In this document: piece after piece, positions 28,954-35,998 of the stretch | Numbering within the stretch: the stretch's first letter is position 1 | Layout: each line of letters starts with the position of its first letter | From: Thermaerobacter sp. PB12/4term | GTDB lineage: Bacteria > Bacillota > Sulfobacillia > Thermaerobacterales > Thermaerobacteraceae | Assembly (NCBI RefSeq): GCF_003403315.2 | Contig: NZ_CP048407.1 | Coordinates: 868,001-932,000 of the forward strand | Direction: 5' to 3' | Length of the DNA: 64,000 nucleotides | Position numbers and translations under genes: made by a program | Notes under the pieces: generated by a model | Told to the model about the DNA's origin: nothing | Database searches by the model: none | What the model saw: only the letters and a program-made list of their open reading frames with translations

Positions 28954-30522
28954 ATGACGACCGGCACCGGTGTGCGCCGGAGAGAGGGGCGGCTGCGGGA
29001 AGAGGTGCGGCTGCTGGCGCCCACCGGGCACCTGGGGTTTACGCCCCTGGAGAAGGAGAGCTTCCTGGCGGGGCTCGAGCGGGACCCGGACTTCGTGGTG
29101 GCCGATTCCGGGAGCTGCGACATCGGCCCTTACCCGCTGGGCGCCGACGAGTCGGCCAGCCCGCCGGCCTGGCAGTACCACGACCTGGAGATCCTGCTGG
29201 TGGAAACCCGCCGGCGAGGGATCCCGCTGATTATCGGCTCGGCGTCGGATACGGGCACCCGGCGCGGGGTCGACCAGTTCGCCGGGATGATGGAAGACAT
29301 CGCAGCCCGGCATGGCCTGCCGCCCTTCCGGCTGGCGCGGATCTATTCGGACGTTCCCCTGGAACGGTTGCGCCGTCTCCTGGAACAGGGCGTTGCCATC
29401 CGCGGGCTGGACGGCCGGCCCGATCTGACCCTGGCCGATCTGGACCGGACCTCCCGGGCGGTCGCGGTCATGGGGGCGGAGCCCATCGTCGCGGCCTTGG
29501 ACGCGGGGGCCGACGTGGTGATCTGCGGCCGGTCCAGCGATGCGGCCATCTTCGCGGCGGCCGCCCTCTGGTGCGGCATGCCCCCGGCCACCGCCTACTA
29601 CGCCGGCAAGGTGCTGGAATGCGCCTCCTTCTGTGCCGAGCCCTTCATGGCCAAGGAGTCGGTGCTGGGCACCCTGCGCCCCGGCGAGGTGGTGGTGGAG
29701 CCCATGCACCCGGACCAGCGGTGCACGCCGGCCTCGCTGGCCGGGCATGCCCTGTACGAGCGGGCTACGCCCTTCTTCGAGCACGTGCCCGCAGGCGTCC
29801 TGGACATGCGCGGGTGCGTCTACCAGGCGCTGGACGACCGCCGCACCCGGGTCACCGGCTTCCAGTTCCGGGCCGCCGGCACCTACGCCGTGAAGATCGA
29901 GGGGGCGGGCCCGGCCGGCGCCCGCTTCCTCGCCCTGGCCGGCTTGCGCGATCCCGAGCTGGTGGCCCGGGTGGACGAGGCCATCGCCTGGGCGCGGCGG
30001 AAGGTGGCGGAGCGTTACGGGACCACCGGTTACGAACTGTTCTACCACGTGTACGGCCGCAACGGCGTCATGGGGGAGCTGGAGCCCCATTCCCGCCCCG
30101 GGCACGAGCTGGGGCTGGTGGTCGAGGTGGTCTGTCCCGACCGGCACCGGGGCCGCGAGATCTGCACCATGGCGGCCCGCCAGCTCTTCTACGCCCGCAT
30201 CGGGGGCCGGACCGGGACCGCCGGCCGGGCCGCCCTGATGACCGACGAGGTCCTGGAGGCCCGGCCCGCCTACCGCTGGACGCTGAACCACGTGGTGCCC
30301 GTGGACGATCCCCTGAGCTGGTTCCCCACGGTGCTGGAGCAGGTGGGGTTCAGCAGCCCTGACCCCCACCCTGCCCCTGATCCGCTGGCGGCTCCCGCCG
30401 GTGGGCGGGAACCCGTGGGGGCGGGAGCGGCAAGCCGCCCGGCCGCGGCCGGGCGCCCGGGAGCCCGCCCGGGGCACCGGCCGGCGGGCCGGGGGGAGGG
30501 ATCCCGTCATGCGCCTGCGTGA
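28954..30522 (+). CDS. AtuA-like acyclic terpene utilisation family protein (DUF1446)
   Basis: A 522-residue protein of the AtuA/DUF1446 family. Conserved segments are LGFTPLEKESFLAGLERDPD, VADSGSCDIGPYPLG, LIIGSASDTGTRRGVDQF, VVICGRSSDAAIFAAAALW and the closing ATLNH-like TLNHVVPVDDPLSWFPT. The biochemical role is unsettled; AtuA takes part in citronellol/geraniol breakdown in Pseudomonas. ATG 28954 follows AGGGGTGAC. The last 55 residues are low-complexity. The DUF4387 gene overlaps it by 14 bases, a pairing often seen, and ABC transport genes follow, so the substrate is probably imported. Confidence 0.83.
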   Translation: MTTGTGVRRREGRLREEVRLLAPTGHLGFTPLEKESFLAGLERDPDFVVADSGSCDIGPYPLGADESASPPAWQYHDLEILLVETRRRGIPLIIGSASDTGTRRGVDQFAGMMEDIAARHGLPPFRLARIYSDVPLERLRRLLEQGVAIRGLDGRPDLTLADLDRTSRAVAVMGAEPIVAALDAGADVVICGRSSDAAIFAAAALWCGMPPATAYYAGKVLECASFCAEPFMAKESVLGTLRPGEVVVEPMHPDQRCTPASLAGHALYERATPFFEHVPAGVLDMRGCVYQALDDRRTRVTGFQFRAAGTYAVKIEGAGPAGARFLALAGLRDPELVARVDEAIAWARRKVAERYGTTGYELFYHVYGRNGVMGELEPHSRPGHELGLVVEVVCPDRHRGREICTMAARQLFYARIGGRTGTAGRAALMTDEVLEARPAYRWTLNHVVPVDDPLSWFPTVLEQVGFSSPDPHPAPDPLAAPAGGREPVGAGAASRPAAAGRPGARPGHRPAGRGEGSRHAPA

Positions 30523-30964
30523 GCTGGCCAGCACCATCCGGAGCAAGAATGCCGGCGTCGACCTGATCACCTTCGACATCCTCTTCCCGTCGGAGGAGGC
30601 GTACCGGCGGGCCTGCCGGAGCCCCGTGCTGACCCCGGAGGCCCTCTGCCGGTTGCTGGGCATCGGCCCCGACAGCCTGTACTGTTTCGTCCATTTTGAC
30701 CCCGCCCGGGCCATCAAGTTCACGGTCCGGCGGCGCCGCCCGGCGGGAAGCCCGGGAGAGACCGATGTCTTCGGCACCCAGCAGTACGGGCCTCTGCTGG
30801 ATCTGGAGGTCGAACCGGCCGGGGCACCGCCCGCGGCAATGTCGGAGGTAGCGCCCCCGGCTCCGGCGGCGGCAGCTCCGGCTGCGGTGCGGCCGCTGGG
30901 CTGCGGGGCCCGGGCCGGCCGCGGCGGGAGTTCACATGGTGACGGCCACTCCGGTTTGGAGTGA
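30509..30964 (+). CDS. DUF4387-domain protein
   Basis: A 151-residue protein. Residues 1-100 match DUF4387, the usual neighbour or fusion partner of AtuA: MRLRELASTIRSKNAGVDLI, TFDILFPSEEAYRRAC, YCFVHFDPARAIKFTVRR, and FGTQQYGPLLDLEV. The remaining 50 residues are Ala/Pro-rich and not conserved. ATG 30509 follows GGGGGGAGGG and lies inside the end of the AtuA gene, so the two are translationally coupled. The function is unknown; it may be a small subunit of an AtuA enzyme. Confidence 0.82.
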   Translation: MRLRELASTIRSKNAGVDLITFDILFPSEEAYRRACRSPVLTPEALCRLLGIGPDSLYCFVHFDPARAIKFTVRRRRPAGSPGETDVFGTQQYGPLLDLEVEPAGAPPAAMSEVAPPAPAAAAPAAVRPLGCGARAGRGGSSHGDGHSGLE

Positions 30965-31097: not shown

Positions 31098-32720
31098 ATG
31101 CGGGGGGTGCACCGCCAAGGGCGAAGGTTGCGGGCGGCTCCCAACCGCCTGGGCCGGCTCGTCCCGCTGGCGGTGGCCCTGGTCCTGGCCCTGGCCGCCG
31201 CCGGTTGCACCGGCGGCGGCCGGGAGCAGGCGGGCGGCGAGGCCGGTTCGTCCCAGGGGCAGGTGCTGAGCATCACCCTGGACGGGGCGAAGAACCGGGA
31301 GGCGGAGCTGCAGGTCATCGCCCAGTACCTCAAGCAGGTGGGCATCGACGCCCAGGTGCGGGTGTGGGAGTACCAGACCCTGGTGGCGGAGGCCCAGAAG
31401 GGCACCCGCCAGGCCTACGCCACCGACTGGGGGAGCGCCACCTTCACCCCGGTGGACCTGGCGGTGCCCAAGCTGGAGACGGGCGGGCGCGGCAACTACT
31501 CCTTCTATTCCAACCCGGACCTGGACGCCCTCTTCAAGGAGGCGGCGGCCGCTACCGACGAGGCGAAGGCGCTGGAGGCCTACAAGAAGGCGCAGGCCAT
31601 CCTTTTCGAAGACGCCCCCTGGATCTTCGGTTACTACCTGGATGCCATCGAGGCGGCCTCGACCCGGGTGAAGAACTGGCAGCCCTCCATGGACAGCCGG
31701 ATCAACCTGCACGACGTGGAGCTGGAGGGCGGCGACACCCTGGTGGTGGGGTTGCGGGCCGACCGGATCCTGTCCCTGGACCCGGCCGCCTACCGCGACC
31801 GCGACACCGAGACGGTGATCCGCAACATCTATGACGGCCTGGTCACCCGGACGCCCGACGGCAAGGTGGTGCCCGAGATCGCCGAGTCGTGGGAGCAGCC
31901 CGACCCGACCACCTACGTCTTCAAGCTGCGCCGCGGCATCAAGTTCCACAACGGCGAGGACCTGACGGCCGACGACGTGGTCTTCACCTTCGAGCGGATC
32001 CTGGCCGAAGACGGCCTGGACGGCCAGCCGTCGCCGCGCAAGGGGCTGTTGGAGCCGCTCGAGTCCATCGAGAAGGTCGACGATTACACGGTGCGGATGA
32101 AGCTGGCCAACCCGTCGGCGGCGTTCCTCCAGCTGCTGGTGCACACGCAGATCGTGCCCAAGGACTATGTTGAGGAAGTGGGCAGTGCCGGCCTGTCGGC
32201 CAAGCCCGTCGGGGCGGGGCCCTTCCGCTTCGTCGAGGGCAGCCTGGACGGGCAGGTCGTCCTGGAGCGGTTCGACGACTACTACGGCGGTTCGCCGGAC
32301 CTGCCGCCCGTGGGGCCGGCCAAGCTCCAGCGGGTGGTCTTCCGCATGATGCCCGAGCCGGCCACCCGCATCGCCGCCCTGCAGAACGGCGAGGTCCACA
32401 TCATCCAGGAGGTGCCGCCGGACCTGGTGGCCCAGCTGGAGAAGGACCCCAACGTGCAGGTCAAGGTGACCCAGGGCACGCGGCTTTACATGATCGAGCT
32501 GAACAACAAGCTGTTCACCGATCCCCGGGTGCGGCAGGCGCTGAACTACGCCATCGACTGGGATGCGATCCTCAAGGAGCTCTACAAGGACCACGCCCAC
32601 CGGGTGGCCACGGCCATGCTGCCCAGCGGCTTCGGCTACGACGAGACCCTCAAGCCCTACCCCTACGATCCCGAGAAGGCGAAGCAGCTGCTGCGGGAGG
32701 CGGGGTACAGGGTCGACTGA
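31098..32720 (+). CDS. ABC transporter solute-binding lipoprotein, SBP_bac_5 family, apparently circularly permuted
   Basis: A 540-residue lipoprotein that should capture a peptide-like solute for the two permeases downstream. Signal peptide with lipobox LAAAGC (Cys37). The domain order is unusual. Residues 53-212 resemble the normal C-terminal part of the family (QYLKQVGIDAQVRVWEYQTL, GRGNYSFYSNPDLDALFKEA, EDAPWIFGYYL, INLHDVEL). A short EGG linker follows. Residues 213-540 resemble the normal N-terminal part (DTLVVGLRADRILSLDPA, FKLRRGIKFHNGEDLTADDV, PVGAGPFRFVEG, VRQALNYAIDWDAI) and stop at EKAKQLLREAGYRVD, where ordinary members continue. All pieces are present once, in swapped order. ATG 31098 follows AGGGAGGCGGG; ATG 31029 is an alternative. 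Confidence 0.88.
   Translation: MRGVHRQGRRLRAAPNRLGRLVPLAVALVLALAAAGCTGGGREQAGGEAGSSQGQVLSITLDGAKNREAELQVIAQYLKQVGIDAQVRVWEYQTLVAEAQKGTRQAYATDWGSATFTPVDLAVPKLETGGRGNYSFYSNPDLDALFKEAAAATDEAKALEAYKKAQAILFEDAPWIFGYYLDAIEAASTRVKNWQPSMDSRINLHDVELEGGDTLVVGLRADRILSLDPAAYRDRDTETVIRNIYDGLVTRTPDGKVVPEIAESWEQPDPTTYVFKLRRGIKFHNGEDLTADDVVFTFERILAEDGLDGQPSPRKGLLEPLESIEKVDDYTVRMKLANPSAAFLQLLVHTQIVPKDYVEEVGSAGLSAKPVGAGPFRFVEGSLDGQVVLERFDDYYGGSPDLPPVGPAKLQRVVFRMMPEPATRIAALQNGEVHIIQEVPPDLVAQLEKDPNVQVKVTQGTRLYMIELNNKLFTDPRVRQALNYAIDWDAILKELYKDHAHRVATAMLPSGFGYDETLKPYPYDPEKAKQLLREAGYRVD
31242..31253 (-). repeat. Dispersed 12-mer GGACGAACCGGC, copy 4
   Basis: Exact minus-strand copy in the linker just after the lipobox of the binding protein; the gene reads Ala-Gly-Ser-Ser here. 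Confidence 0.75.
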
Positions 32721-32833: not shown

Positions 32834-33853
32834 ATGCGCGGCGGGTGGGTGTTGCGCAGGGTGCTGATGGCCCTGCCCCTGGCGGTGGGGATCGTGCTGG
32901 TGAGCTTCATCCTCCTGCGGGTGATGCCGGGCGATCCCGTGGACATCATGCTGCGGGGCGGGGGCACCTCCAGCGAGGCGGAGGCCCGGGCCCTGGCCCG
33001 CCAGCTGGGCCTGGACCAGCCCCTGCCCGTCCAGCTGGCCCGGTTCGTAGGGGATCTGGCCCGGGGCGACCTGGGCGAGTCCATCCGCAGCCGGCAGCCC
33101 GTGGGCCAGGTGCTGCTGGCCACCCTGCCGGCCACGGTGGAGCTGGCCCTGGCTGCGCTGGGCTTCGCCGTGGCAACGGGGGTGGCGCTGGGGGTGCTGG
33201 CCGCCACCCGCCGCGGCTCCTGGCTCGACCGGGCGGTCATGGTCAGCGCCTCCCTGGGGATCTCCATGCCGGCCTTCTGGCTCGGCATCGTGCTGATCCT
33301 GCTGCTGGCGGTGGGGACGGGATGGCTGCCCACCTCGGGCCGCATCGCCTCCCAGTACGCCGGCACGGTCCCCTGGCACACCGGCTTCCTGCTCGTCGAC
33401 ACCCTGCTGGCCGGCAACCTGGCGGCCTTCCGCTCGGCGCTGGCCCACCTGGTGCTGCCGGCGGTCACCCTGGGGGCCGAGCTGGCGGCGGTGGTGGCGC
33501 GGGTCACCCGCTCCAGCATGCTGGAGGTGATGGGGGCCGAGTTCGTCCGCACGGCGCGGGCCAAGGGCCTCCCCGAAGGGCGGGTGGTCCTGCGCCATGC
33601 CCTGCGCAACGCCCTGATTCCCACCGCCAGCGTGGTCGGCCTGCAGGCCGGCGTGCTGCTGGGCGGCAACATGATCGTGGAGACGGTGTTCAGCTGGCCG
33701 GGTTTGGGCCGGCTGGTGGTCGAGGCGATCTTCGCCCGGGACTACCCGGTGGTCCAGGGGGCGGTGATGGTCTACGCCCTGACCTTCCTGGTGATGAACC
33801 TCCTGGTCGACCTGGCCTACACCTGGCTGGATCCGCGGATCCGGGAGGCCTAG
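32834..33853 (+). CDS. ABC transporter permease, DppB/OppB type
   Basis: A 339-residue inner-membrane permease of the peptide/nickel class. The start LRRVLMALPLAVGIVLVSFI and VMPGDPVDIMLRGG are typical of DppB; the coupling loop that touches the ATPase is VRTARAKGLPEGRVVLRHAL, followed by LLGGNMIVETVFSWPGLGRL. Six helices. ATG 32834 follows GGGAGGTGAC. It lies 113 bases after the binding protein and 46 bases before the second permease. No ATPase genes (DppD/DppF) are in this operon, so the complex must borrow ATPases coded elsewhere. Confidence 0.9.
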   Translation: MRGGWVLRRVLMALPLAVGIVLVSFILLRVMPGDPVDIMLRGGGTSSEAEARALARQLGLDQPLPVQLARFVGDLARGDLGESIRSRQPVGQVLLATLPATVELALAALGFAVATGVALGVLAATRRGSWLDRAVMVSASLGISMPAFWLGIVLILLLAVGTGWLPTSGRIASQYAGTVPWHTGFLLVDTLLAGNLAAFRSALAHLVLPAVTLGAELAAVVARVTRSSMLEVMGAEFVRTARAKGLPEGRVVLRHALRNALIPTASVVGLQAGVLLGGNMIVETVFSWPGLGRLVVEAIFARDYPVVQGAVMVYALTFLVMNLLVDLAYTWLDPRIREA

Positions 33854-33899: not shown

Positions 33900-34967
33900 A
33901 TGCACGGTCCGTGGGAAAGGCGGCCCGCGCTACAGTGGGACGAACCGGCGGCGGCCCGGGAGCCGGAGGGCGTTCCCGGCCGCGCTGCGCCCGGGTCGCC
34001 CGCCCGGCCGGGCCCCGGGCCCGGGCTCGATCCCGGGGCCGGCCTGGGGAGGGGGCGAGGGGCGGGGGATGGAGCGCCGGGCACCGAGCCTGCTGCCGTG
34101 GCCGCTCCCCTGCCTGGCACCCGGGACACCTGGCGGCGGGCATTGCGCCACCCGCAGGTGGCCGTGGGCCTAGCGGTGGTGGCCCTGTTCGTCCTCGTAG
34201 CGGTGGCCGCCCCGTGGCTGGCGCCCTACGACCCCGAGGACTTCACCTTGAGCGCCCGCCTGGCCCCGCCGGCCTTCCTGCCGGGAGGCCACCCCGAGCA
34301 CCTCCTGGGCACCGACCGGGTGGGGCGCGACCTTCTGACCCGGCTGCTCTACGGTGCCCGGGTGTCGTTGCTGGTCGGTGCCACGGCGGTCACCGTGGCG
34401 GGGGTGGTGGGGTCGGTACTGGGGGCCGTGGCGGGCTACGCGGGAGGCCTGGTGGACCAGGTGCTCTCCCGGGCGGCCGACCTCTTGATGGCCTTCCCGT
34501 ACCTGCTCTTCACCATCCTGATGATGGGCATCCTGGGACCGGGCATCGGCAACCTGATCCTGGCCCTGACCTTCAAAGCCTGGGTGGAGTTCTACCGGGT
34601 GGCCCGGGGCCAGGTCCTGGCGGAAAAGGCGAAACCCTACGTGGAAGCGGCCCGGGCCATCGGCCGCAGCCACGCCGGCATCCTGGCGCGGGAGATCCTG
34701 CCCAACATCCTGCACGCCCTGCTGGTGGTGGCGACCCTGCGGGCCGGTCACATGATCCTGATGGAGGCGTCCCTGAGCTTTCTGGGCATCGGGGTGCCGC
34801 CCGACGTGCCGGCCTGGGGGTCCATGGTGGCCGAGGGCCGGGACTACCTGAGCACCGCCTGGTGGGTGTCGACCCTGCCGGGGCTGGCGGTGCTGGTGCT
34901 GGTGCTGGCGATCAACACCCTGGGCGACGGGCTCAGGGAACTCTTGGACCCGCGGCTGCGGGTGTGA
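33900..34967 (+). CDS. ABC transporter permease, DppC/OppC type
   Basis: A 355-residue permease that pairs with the DppB-type subunit. After a 75-residue Pro/Gly/Ala-rich extension the normal DppC sequence begins: WRRALRHPQVAVGLAVVALF, HLLGTDRVGRDLLTRLLYGA, the coupling loop YVEAARAIGRSHAGILAREI, LMEASLSFLGIGVPPDVPAW and a closing LGDGLRELLDPRLRV. ATG 33900 has AAAGGAGGGG before it, which supports the extension as real. The extension would face the cytoplasm and contains a copy of the 12-mer. Confidence 0.88.
   Translation: MHGPWERRPALQWDEPAAAREPEGVPGRAAPGSPARPGPGPGLDPGAGLGRGRGAGDGAPGTEPAAVAAPLPGTRDTWRRALRHPQVAVGLAVVALFVLVAVAAPWLAPYDPEDFTLSARLAPPAFLPGGHPEHLLGTDRVGRDLLTRLLYGARVSLLVGATAVTVAGVVGSVLGAVAGYAGGLVDQVLSRAADLLMAFPYLLFTILMMGILGPGIGNLILALTFKAWVEFYRVARGQVLAEKAKPYVEAARAIGRSHAGILAREILPNILHALLVVATLRAGHMILMEASLSFLGIGVPPDVPAWGSMVAEGRDYLSTAWWVSTLPGLAVLVLVLAINTLGDGLRELLDPRLRV
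33938..33949 (+). repeat. Dispersed 12-mer GGACGAACCGGC, copy 5
   Basis: Exact plus-strand copy in the disordered N-terminal extension of the second permease; read as Asp-Glu-Pro-Ala. Confidence 0.75.
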
Positions 34968-35026: not shown

Positions 35027-35998
35027 ATGACGAGGCCCGTCATCGGCATCGCGGCCTCGGTGGACTTCATGGCCCCCGCCCGTTCCGGCGGGGGCATCCT
35101 GCCTTCGGGACCTGGCGCAGGGGGGCACGGGCCCTGCGGGACCGGGGACCAGCCCCCGCGGCTGGTGGCCGTTCTGCCCATGACGTACGTGGAGGCCGTG
35201 GCCGCCGCGGGCGGCCTCCCGGTGATCCTGCCGGTGGCGCGGCCGGGCGAGGCCGTGGACCCCTGGCTGGAGCACATCGACGCCCTGGTGGTACCCGGGA
35301 ATTATCCGTACCTTCCTGCCGGACTGCGGGCGCTGCCGGGGCTGCGCGAGCAGGCCCCCTACCGCTATGATTCCGATGTGGTCTGGCTCCGGGGCGCCCT
35401 GGGGCGGGGCATGCCCGTGCTGGCCATCTGCCGCGGCATGCAGACGCTGAACGAGCTCCTGGGCGGGACCCTGACGCGCCGGGTCCACCCGCCGGGGTCC
35501 CACCTGCAGGTGGAACCGGGCGCCGGGCGGGGCCACGGCCTTTGGGTCGAACCCGGCTCCCGGCTGGCCGCCTGCCTGGGGGGCCGCACCCGGGTGCACG
35601 TCAACAGCTTCCACGTGGCGGCGGTGCGCCAGCCCGGCCGGGGGCTGCGGGTCAGCGGCCGGGCCCAGGACGGGGTGGTGGAGGCCGTGGAGGGCGAAGG
35701 GGAGGCCTTCATCCTGGGTGTCCAGTTCCACCCCGAGCTGCTGTGGCGGGACGAACCGGCCCTGGCGGGGATCTTCACCGGGCTCGTCGAGGCGGCCTGG
35801 GTCTACCGGCAAGGCCGCGCCGGCCGGACGGTCACCCCGGCGGCCGTCACCGCAGCAGCGGCGGGCGAGGGGGCCGGTGCGGGCGCGGATGCGGGCGCGG
35901 GCGGTTCCGCGCCGCCCAGGGCGGCCCCGGCTGGGGCCGCGGTGAAGGTCGAGCCGGGGCCTGCGGCCGTCCATTGCTGTGATCCTTTGATGTTGTGA
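35027..35998 (+). CDS. Peptidase C26 gamma-glutamyl hydrolase (PuuD-like)
   Basis: A 323-residue class I glutamine-amidotransferase-fold hydrolase, expected to remove gamma-linked glutamate from small molecules. The nucleophile lies in VLAICRGMQTLNELLGGTL and the catalytic histidine in FILGVQFHPELLW; VNSFHVAAV is also typical. Residues 15-35 hold a Gly/Pro-rich insert and the last 65 residues an Ala/Gly-rich tail. ATG 35027 has a moderate site (GGGAGA). Its place at the end of the transport operon suggests that it cleaves the imported compound. Confidence 0.85.
   Translation: MTRPVIGIAASVDFMAPARSGGGILPSGPGAGGHGPCGTGDQPPRLVAVLPMTYVEAVAAAGGLPVILPVARPGEAVDPWLEHIDALVVPGNYPYLPAGLRALPGLREQAPYRYDSDVVWLRGALGRGMPVLAICRGMQTLNELLGGTLTRRVHPPGSHLQVEPGAGRGHGLWVEPGSRLAACLGGRTRVHVNSFHVAAVRQPGRGLRVSGRAQDGVVEAVEGEGEAFILGVQFHPELLWRDEPALAGIFTGLVEAAWVYRQGRAGRTVTPAAVTAAAAGEGAGAGADAGAGGSAPPRAAPAGAAVKVEPGPAAVHCCDPLML
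35749..35760 (+). repeat. Dispersed 12-mer GGACGAACCGGC, copy 6
   Basis: Exact plus-strand copy near the C-terminal end of the C26 hydrolase fold, eight codons after the catalytic FHPE motif; read as Asp-Glu-Pro-Ala. Confidence 0.75.

Follow-up and report, generated by a model that had tools for sequence, protein, structure and literature searches.

The window analysed here is a 64,000-nucleotide stretch of the genome of Thermaerobacter sp. PB12/4term. On its forward strand lies a gene for a 540-residue solute-binding protein (SBP) of family 5, preceded by genes for AtuA-family and DUF4387 proteins and followed by genes for two permeases and a C26 peptidase (Table 1). As the first-pass annotation of this sequence had it, the protein starts with a normal lipoprotein signal: inspected by eye, its translation opens with a signal peptide followed by LAAAGC, which we take to be a lipobox that makes Cys37 the likely site of lipidation. 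Both the secretion/lipoprotein signal (by eye) and an adjoining DppB/DppC pair (by Pfam) are present at the locus.

Table 1. Features of the SBP locus, in window coordinates
Feature	Position	Strand	Basis
AtuA-family protein, upstream of SBP	28954..30522	+	PF07287
DUF4387 protein, upstream of SBP; start approximate	30509..30964	+	PF14330
Circularly permuted family-5 solute-binding lipoprotein, order C-N1-N2	31098..32720	+	ORF, translation, Pfam order
Signal peptide and lipobox LAAAGC, Cys37 likely lipidated	31098..31208	+	By eye from translation
C module (last part in normal members)	31260..31724	+	PF00496 293-360, alignment, part model
E-G-G join of native C and N termini	31725..31733	+	Alignment with normal and permuted relatives
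N modules (N1+N2; first part in normal members), ending just past helix EKAKQLLREAGY	31734..32717	+	PF00496 1-278, model match
DppB-type permease	32834..33853	+	PF00528, PF19300
DppC-type permease	33900..34967	+	PF00528, PF12911
Peptidase C26 (gamma-glutamyl hydrolase family), likely same operon	35027..35998	+	PF07722

The first-pass annotation had described the protein as an SBP_bac_5 fold with swapped halves, naturally circularly permuted, and had proposed that the two parts be searched separately against Pfam. Its description is borne out. The entire protein matches PF00496 with 304 bits, above the curated cut-off of 32.4. Searched on their own, residues 53 to 212 match the C-terminal region of the model (positions 293 to 360) with 27.5 bits and E 2.2e-6, short of the curated cut-off, and residues 213 to 540 match its N-terminal region (positions 1 to 278; E 3.6e-82). 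Thus, the model positions do not rise along the protein, and we file it as a permuted variant rather than as an ordinary SBP_bac_5 member. A Pfam search of the entire genome (one contig, 2.82 Mb) likewise places positions 275 to 359 at 899227 to 899469 and positions 1 to 279 at 899863 to 900711. This genome holds ten SBP_bac_5 genes, nine of them normal with a single rising stretch and one swapped. An HMM built from 54 normal-order relatives also finds its positions 360 to 520 first in the window protein and 37 to 364 second. Each module gives one match, none missing and none doubled, in agreement with the earlier remark that every part occurs once and that the length is normal. PF00496 is the only Pfam family matched at E 0.001, with no match to a cluster B sugar-binding family. 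The NCBIfam equivalogs score the window protein at 194 bits against a cut-off of 650 (Opp4A), 179 against 594 (GsiB), 166 against 600 (Opp5A_nikA), 160 against 1005 (DppA) and 123 against 947 (OppA); none of five permuted proteins (the window protein, L227, L179, L020 and L183) reaches the cut-off of any NCBIfam equivalog.

The EGG linker noticed between the halves is also seen when the protein is aligned with its relatives. The C-terminal ends of normal relatives resemble INLHDVGLKD and their mature starts resemble EEGKTLVVGL; the junction in the window protein reads '...INLHDVELEGGDTLVVGL'. Compared with these ends and starts, the E-G-G join thus adds almost nothing. At its other end, the protein begins where normal members go on after '...EAGY', and it stops at '...EKAKQLLREAGYRVD'.

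A template-free AlphaFold2 run, with 12 permuted sequences as its alignment, gave a full-length model with a pLDDT of 83.7 and a pTM of 0.78. Residues 211 to 540 of this model align to residues 3 to 324 of 1uqw (Z 27.9, rmsd 2.0, 315 residues), and residues 213 to 540 align to residues 1 to 344 of 1dpp; sequential aligners match one side only of the full model. The C part modelled alone (pLDDT 81.8, pTM 0.62) matches 5u4o 356-521 (Z 11.6, rmsd 4.2), 1dpp 337-507 (Z 11.3, rmsd 4.6) and 1uqw 317-489 (Z 10.7, rmsd 4.4). In these predictions the N-part and C-part matches are complementary, the normal fold being fitted part by part, each separately. Of the superposition on solved members that had been suggested, the match of each part to 1uqw and 1dpp stands, whereas the full-chain alignment covers the N side only.

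Genes of both orders occupy the same genomic setting. DppB and then DppC lie downstream of the SBP in 34 of the 35 stretches examined, which include both orders (the 35th, L200, stops at a contig edge), and this common SBP-DppB-DppC setting places both orders in one kind of importer. C26 or AtuA/DUF4387 genes are found near some permuted genes (the window gene, L040, L042 and L046) and near some normal-order genes (L051, L053, L054, L055 and L199), with the AtuA and DUF4387 genes occurring as a pair near permuted L040 and L042 and normal L053 and L054. The AtuA/DUF4387 neighbours may point to the substrate pathway of the SBP, and the C26 neighbour hints, though only hints, at a gamma-glutamyl or peptide-like ligand. 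The nearest normal-order genes are L049 and L051-L055, whose products share 55-61% identity with the window protein in the N part, and L143-L145, for which the figure in the same part is 60-61%. These normal sister genes, which come from Bacillota and one Desulfovibrio MAG, share SBP-DppB-DppC and in some cases C26 or AtuA/DUF4387 with the window locus but differ from it in order. Over the N part, the closest relative of some permuted genes is a normal-order one: L146 for L018 (70% identical), L155 for L019 (69%) and L156 for L020 (69%).

While the first-pass annotation was correct about the circular permutation, its scope proved wider: the same cut recurs in other groups, and a second cut lies elsewhere in the fold. 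The window-type order C-N1-N2 is found in a second group of genes (group 2: L019, L020, L027 and L152-L154), the first three of which are 30-34% identical to the window protein, and in a separate case, L148 (from G397). A match spans the window-type junction in 24 of 398 genomes of the phylum, and G397 has a more distant one. A third group was first found on plasmids, where 36 of the 50 matches listed run as one collinear piece. All 12 one-piece loci fetched for group 3 are permuted (five from Alphaproteobacteria and seven from haloarchaea), and all three two-piece loci fetched have the normal order. In group 3 the same loop is opened some residues further on, at '...GYTLENGRLYYPE', which fits a separate event. 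Across the same 398 genomes, the group-3 profile spans the C-to-N1 junction in at least 45, a figure that includes window-type genes from the 24 genomes above and a truncated gene in G242, this junction being common to both permuted orders. An M28-family peptidase gene, mostly on the opposite strand, lies near the SBP at five of the 11 annotated group-3 loci fetched (L178, L179, L180, L182 and L189; the twelfth, L181, lacks annotation), and the same five SBP genes sit in runs of the form SBP-permease-permease-ATPase-ATPase.

Some of these group-3 profile matches have a second permuted order, N2-C-N1, in which the chain is opened after '...KNPNYW', as compared with after '...EAGY' in the window type. 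Successive segments of L231 match PF00496 positions 145-286, 289-364 and 4-145, and those of L227 match positions 136-286, 290-363 and 4-146. The members are L225-L227, L229, L231, L232, L235-L239 and L243-L262, and tandem pairs of such genes are present on three contigs (L237, L238 and L239). When plasmids were searched for the second order, the 15 matches listed (of 2143 records) were all two-piece, as expected of normal order. When three module HMMs were run over the fetched loci, 136 ORFs read N1-N2-C, 91 read C-N1-N2, 34 read N2-C-N1 and nine held two modules; made non-redundant and with short-module ORFs dropped, the set comprises 118 normal, 60 window-type and 30 second-type ORFs, counts that describe loci fetched largely with permuted queries and not frequencies in nature. 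The module HMMs, and independently Pfam for the second order, thus show that all three cyclic orders of the modules exist.

We counted changes of order on IQ-TREE phylogenies of the re-ordered modules, with near-duplicates removed before rows were selected (two long branches, L002 and the wrong ORF L072, were left out of tree B). Sets of 40 and 38 rows each gave four changes, all forced by well-supported branches; a set of 29 rows gave five, three of them forced; and a set of 38 rows that included group 3 gave seven, six of them forced. The broadest tree, with 43 rows and three states, also gave seven changes: six window-type ones, all six forced, and one for the second order, whose seven rows form one clade with a support of 100/100. 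These trees count changes without direction, and some changes may be reversions. It could therefore be argued that one or a few ancient permutations account for the permuted genes, that the normal-order relatives are reversions or the trees are misled by exchange of halves, and that the order has changed only rarely. We consider this unlikely. A reversion is itself a circular permutation, and in AU tests a tree with all 15 window-type rows as one clade has a lnL that is 723 lower (p about 7e-35), which rejects a single origin of the window-type order. Likewise, p is 2.6e-7 for group 2 with L148 and 0.00067 for L019 with L020. Other tests are more favorable to few changes: p is 0.037 for the window clade with L018 and 0.034 for group 2 alone, and normal L155, L156 and L030 within group 2 could form one clade, which is not rejected (p 0.079). 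The groups were picked after a first FastTree, and thus the marginal p values deserve little weight.

FastTrees built separately from the N part and the C part agree in making normal L143-L145 and L049 the neighbours of a 31-member window clade, and in nesting normal L156 and L030 among the permuted genes of group 2, both of which argue against a rarely changed order. They disagree on L020, which falls with four other permuted genes in the N-part tree and with L156 and L030 in the C-part tree, and also on L018 and L148, as would be expected if the trees were misled; exchange of halves or weak signal may explain these three conflicts. Taking the evidence together, we think it probable that family-5 SBPs have been permuted repeatedly in nature, by six window-type changes in the broadest tree and by a separate permutation in a second loop. 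Bacteria thus use each of the three cyclic orders, and archaea use the window-type order as well. On this reading the cut loops would be permissive, and the recurrence would reflect either selection on the exit of the anchor or a rate of in-frame duplication and trimming in these genes that is high but has gone unrecognised.

With regard to the window gene itself, we put the probability at roughly nine in ten that it encodes a working SBP lipoprotein of a Dpp/Opp-type ABC importer, with a presumed function in transport, and that its chain is a naturally circularly permuted form of the family-5 fold. E-G-G would link the native N and C termini, and the new ends would lie in the loop that follows helix EKAKQLLREAGY. 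The folded chain would form the usual two-lobed trap and would presumably hand its ligand to the adjoining DppB-DppC permease. The protein most likely adopts the fold of DppA and its relatives and works as they do, and the order itself may be neutral: it would be tolerated because the native termini are close together, as the short join suggests, and because the opened loops are exposed. Going by the domain boundaries of DppA, the second lobe would carry the cut and the first lobe the joined native termini, and the lipid anchor should therefore leave from the lobe that holds the cut and not from the one that holds the native termini. The moved anchor is the obvious possible benefit of the new order. 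A selective advantage of this kind is doubtful, since a crude motif scan finds no lipobox-like motif in 26 of the 60 window-type and in all 30 of the second-type proteins. Four window-type proteins (L043, L044, L045 and L050) have, by eye, a signal-like start with no obvious lipobox, suggesting that perhaps not all window-type orthologs are lipoproteins.

At the DNA level, the order would have arisen by duplication of the gene followed by trimming of the copy, in keeping with the route that the first-pass annotation inferred, a tandem duplication with later loss of the outer parts. No N-C-N or C-N-C duplication intermediate was found among the fetched ORFs, the single flag, L215, being a split N1 match. 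Several candidates for split genes as intermediates were rejected as well: L048, L142 and L083 are half ORFs situated at the ends of contigs, L016/L130 carries a TAG codon, the reading frames of L167 and L177 seem to be broken, and L007 has the normal order, its C module being matched weakly. A different possibility is that cleavage of the precursor at E-G-G yields two separate chains that then associate, in which case the order would be neutral. The join does sit between two compact parts, but it is short and nearly constant in length across the window-type orthologs, and we regard two chains as very improbable.

The permuted order of the window gene is conserved. Full-length collinear matches turn up, among the 41 genomes searched, in that of the window itself, in each of the four other genus and family members covered, and in six of the remaining 36 (G028, G016, G032, G011, G024 and G025), with a more distant collinear match in three more of the 36 (G031, G009 and G029). 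Eleven of 80 loci are window-type (L038-L047 and L050), and another, L048, is cut by a contig end. Window-type orthologs are found in other Bacillota, including Moorella mulderi. Comparison of the window gene with those of three congeners (G001-G003) gives dN/dS values of about 0.17, 0.18 and 0.15, which together with the conserved order indicate that the gene has been kept by purifying selection. The ortholog in G011 (L016/L130) has an in-frame TAG inside its C module, which may reflect a pseudogene, a sequencing error or something else. This one ortholog aside, mis-assembly, frameshift or decay to a pseudogene, whether through collapse of tandem normal genes or as a decaying pair of fragments, is scarcely conceivable for the window gene and is refuted by the independent genomes and by a dN/dS below 0.2: the related-genome check that had been proposed reveals the same order across many independent assemblies, including those of single-contig G002, G028, G224 and G400 and that of an isolate, Moorella mulderi, and the modules of the window gene are complete and single-copy, with a signal peptide.

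The usual view is that circular permutation is rare and ancient. Consistent with the earlier statement that no natural case has been described in this family, neither the openly available papers listed nor the PDB matches listed contained a permuted binding protein of family 5 or of the Dpp/Opp type. In profile searches of the PDB, each of the best 60 chains (of 110 with A1 and of 104 with A6) has its best stretch to one side of the junction, to within a few positions; in phmmer searches with the window protein and L179, the best stretches are N-part matches in the best 60 of 105 and 101 chains. As far as literature searches show, the recurrence of permutation and the coexistence of three orders in family-5 SBPs are new. 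Pairs that are 69-70% identical over the N part and yet differ in order (L020/L156, L019/L155 and L018/L146) open the permutation process to study, including its route, its rate, folding, and the effect of moved termini on a Venus-flytrap protein and its docking. Domain models with a single order mis-describe a set of ABC importers, and the permuted SBPs offer natural templates for permuted biosensors built on the family-5 fold.

The window protein has much in common with the family-5 SBPs DppA, OppA, GsiB and NikA (SBP_bac_5, PF00496), which also go by the name 'cluster C': both parts match, the gene neighbours are shared, the length is similar and the models match part by part. It differs from them in having the order C-N1-N2 in place of N1-N2-C, with the native termini joined and new termini in another loop. 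A circularly permuted SBP as such is already known from another cluster: Tp0684 (MglB-2) of Treponema pallidum is described as a naturally circularly permuted, lipidated ABC substrate-binding protein of 'Type Ic / Cluster Bc', and its authors raise tethering as a possible reason for the permutation (PMC4990184). Tp0684 belongs to the sugar-binding cluster B and has re-ordered strands in its N-lobe (PMC4990184), whereas the window protein belongs to family 5. In addition, the permuted part of Tp0684 is so diverged that its authors allow an origin from another gene (PMC4990184), whereas here the closest normal and permuted proteins are still 69-70% identical over the N part.
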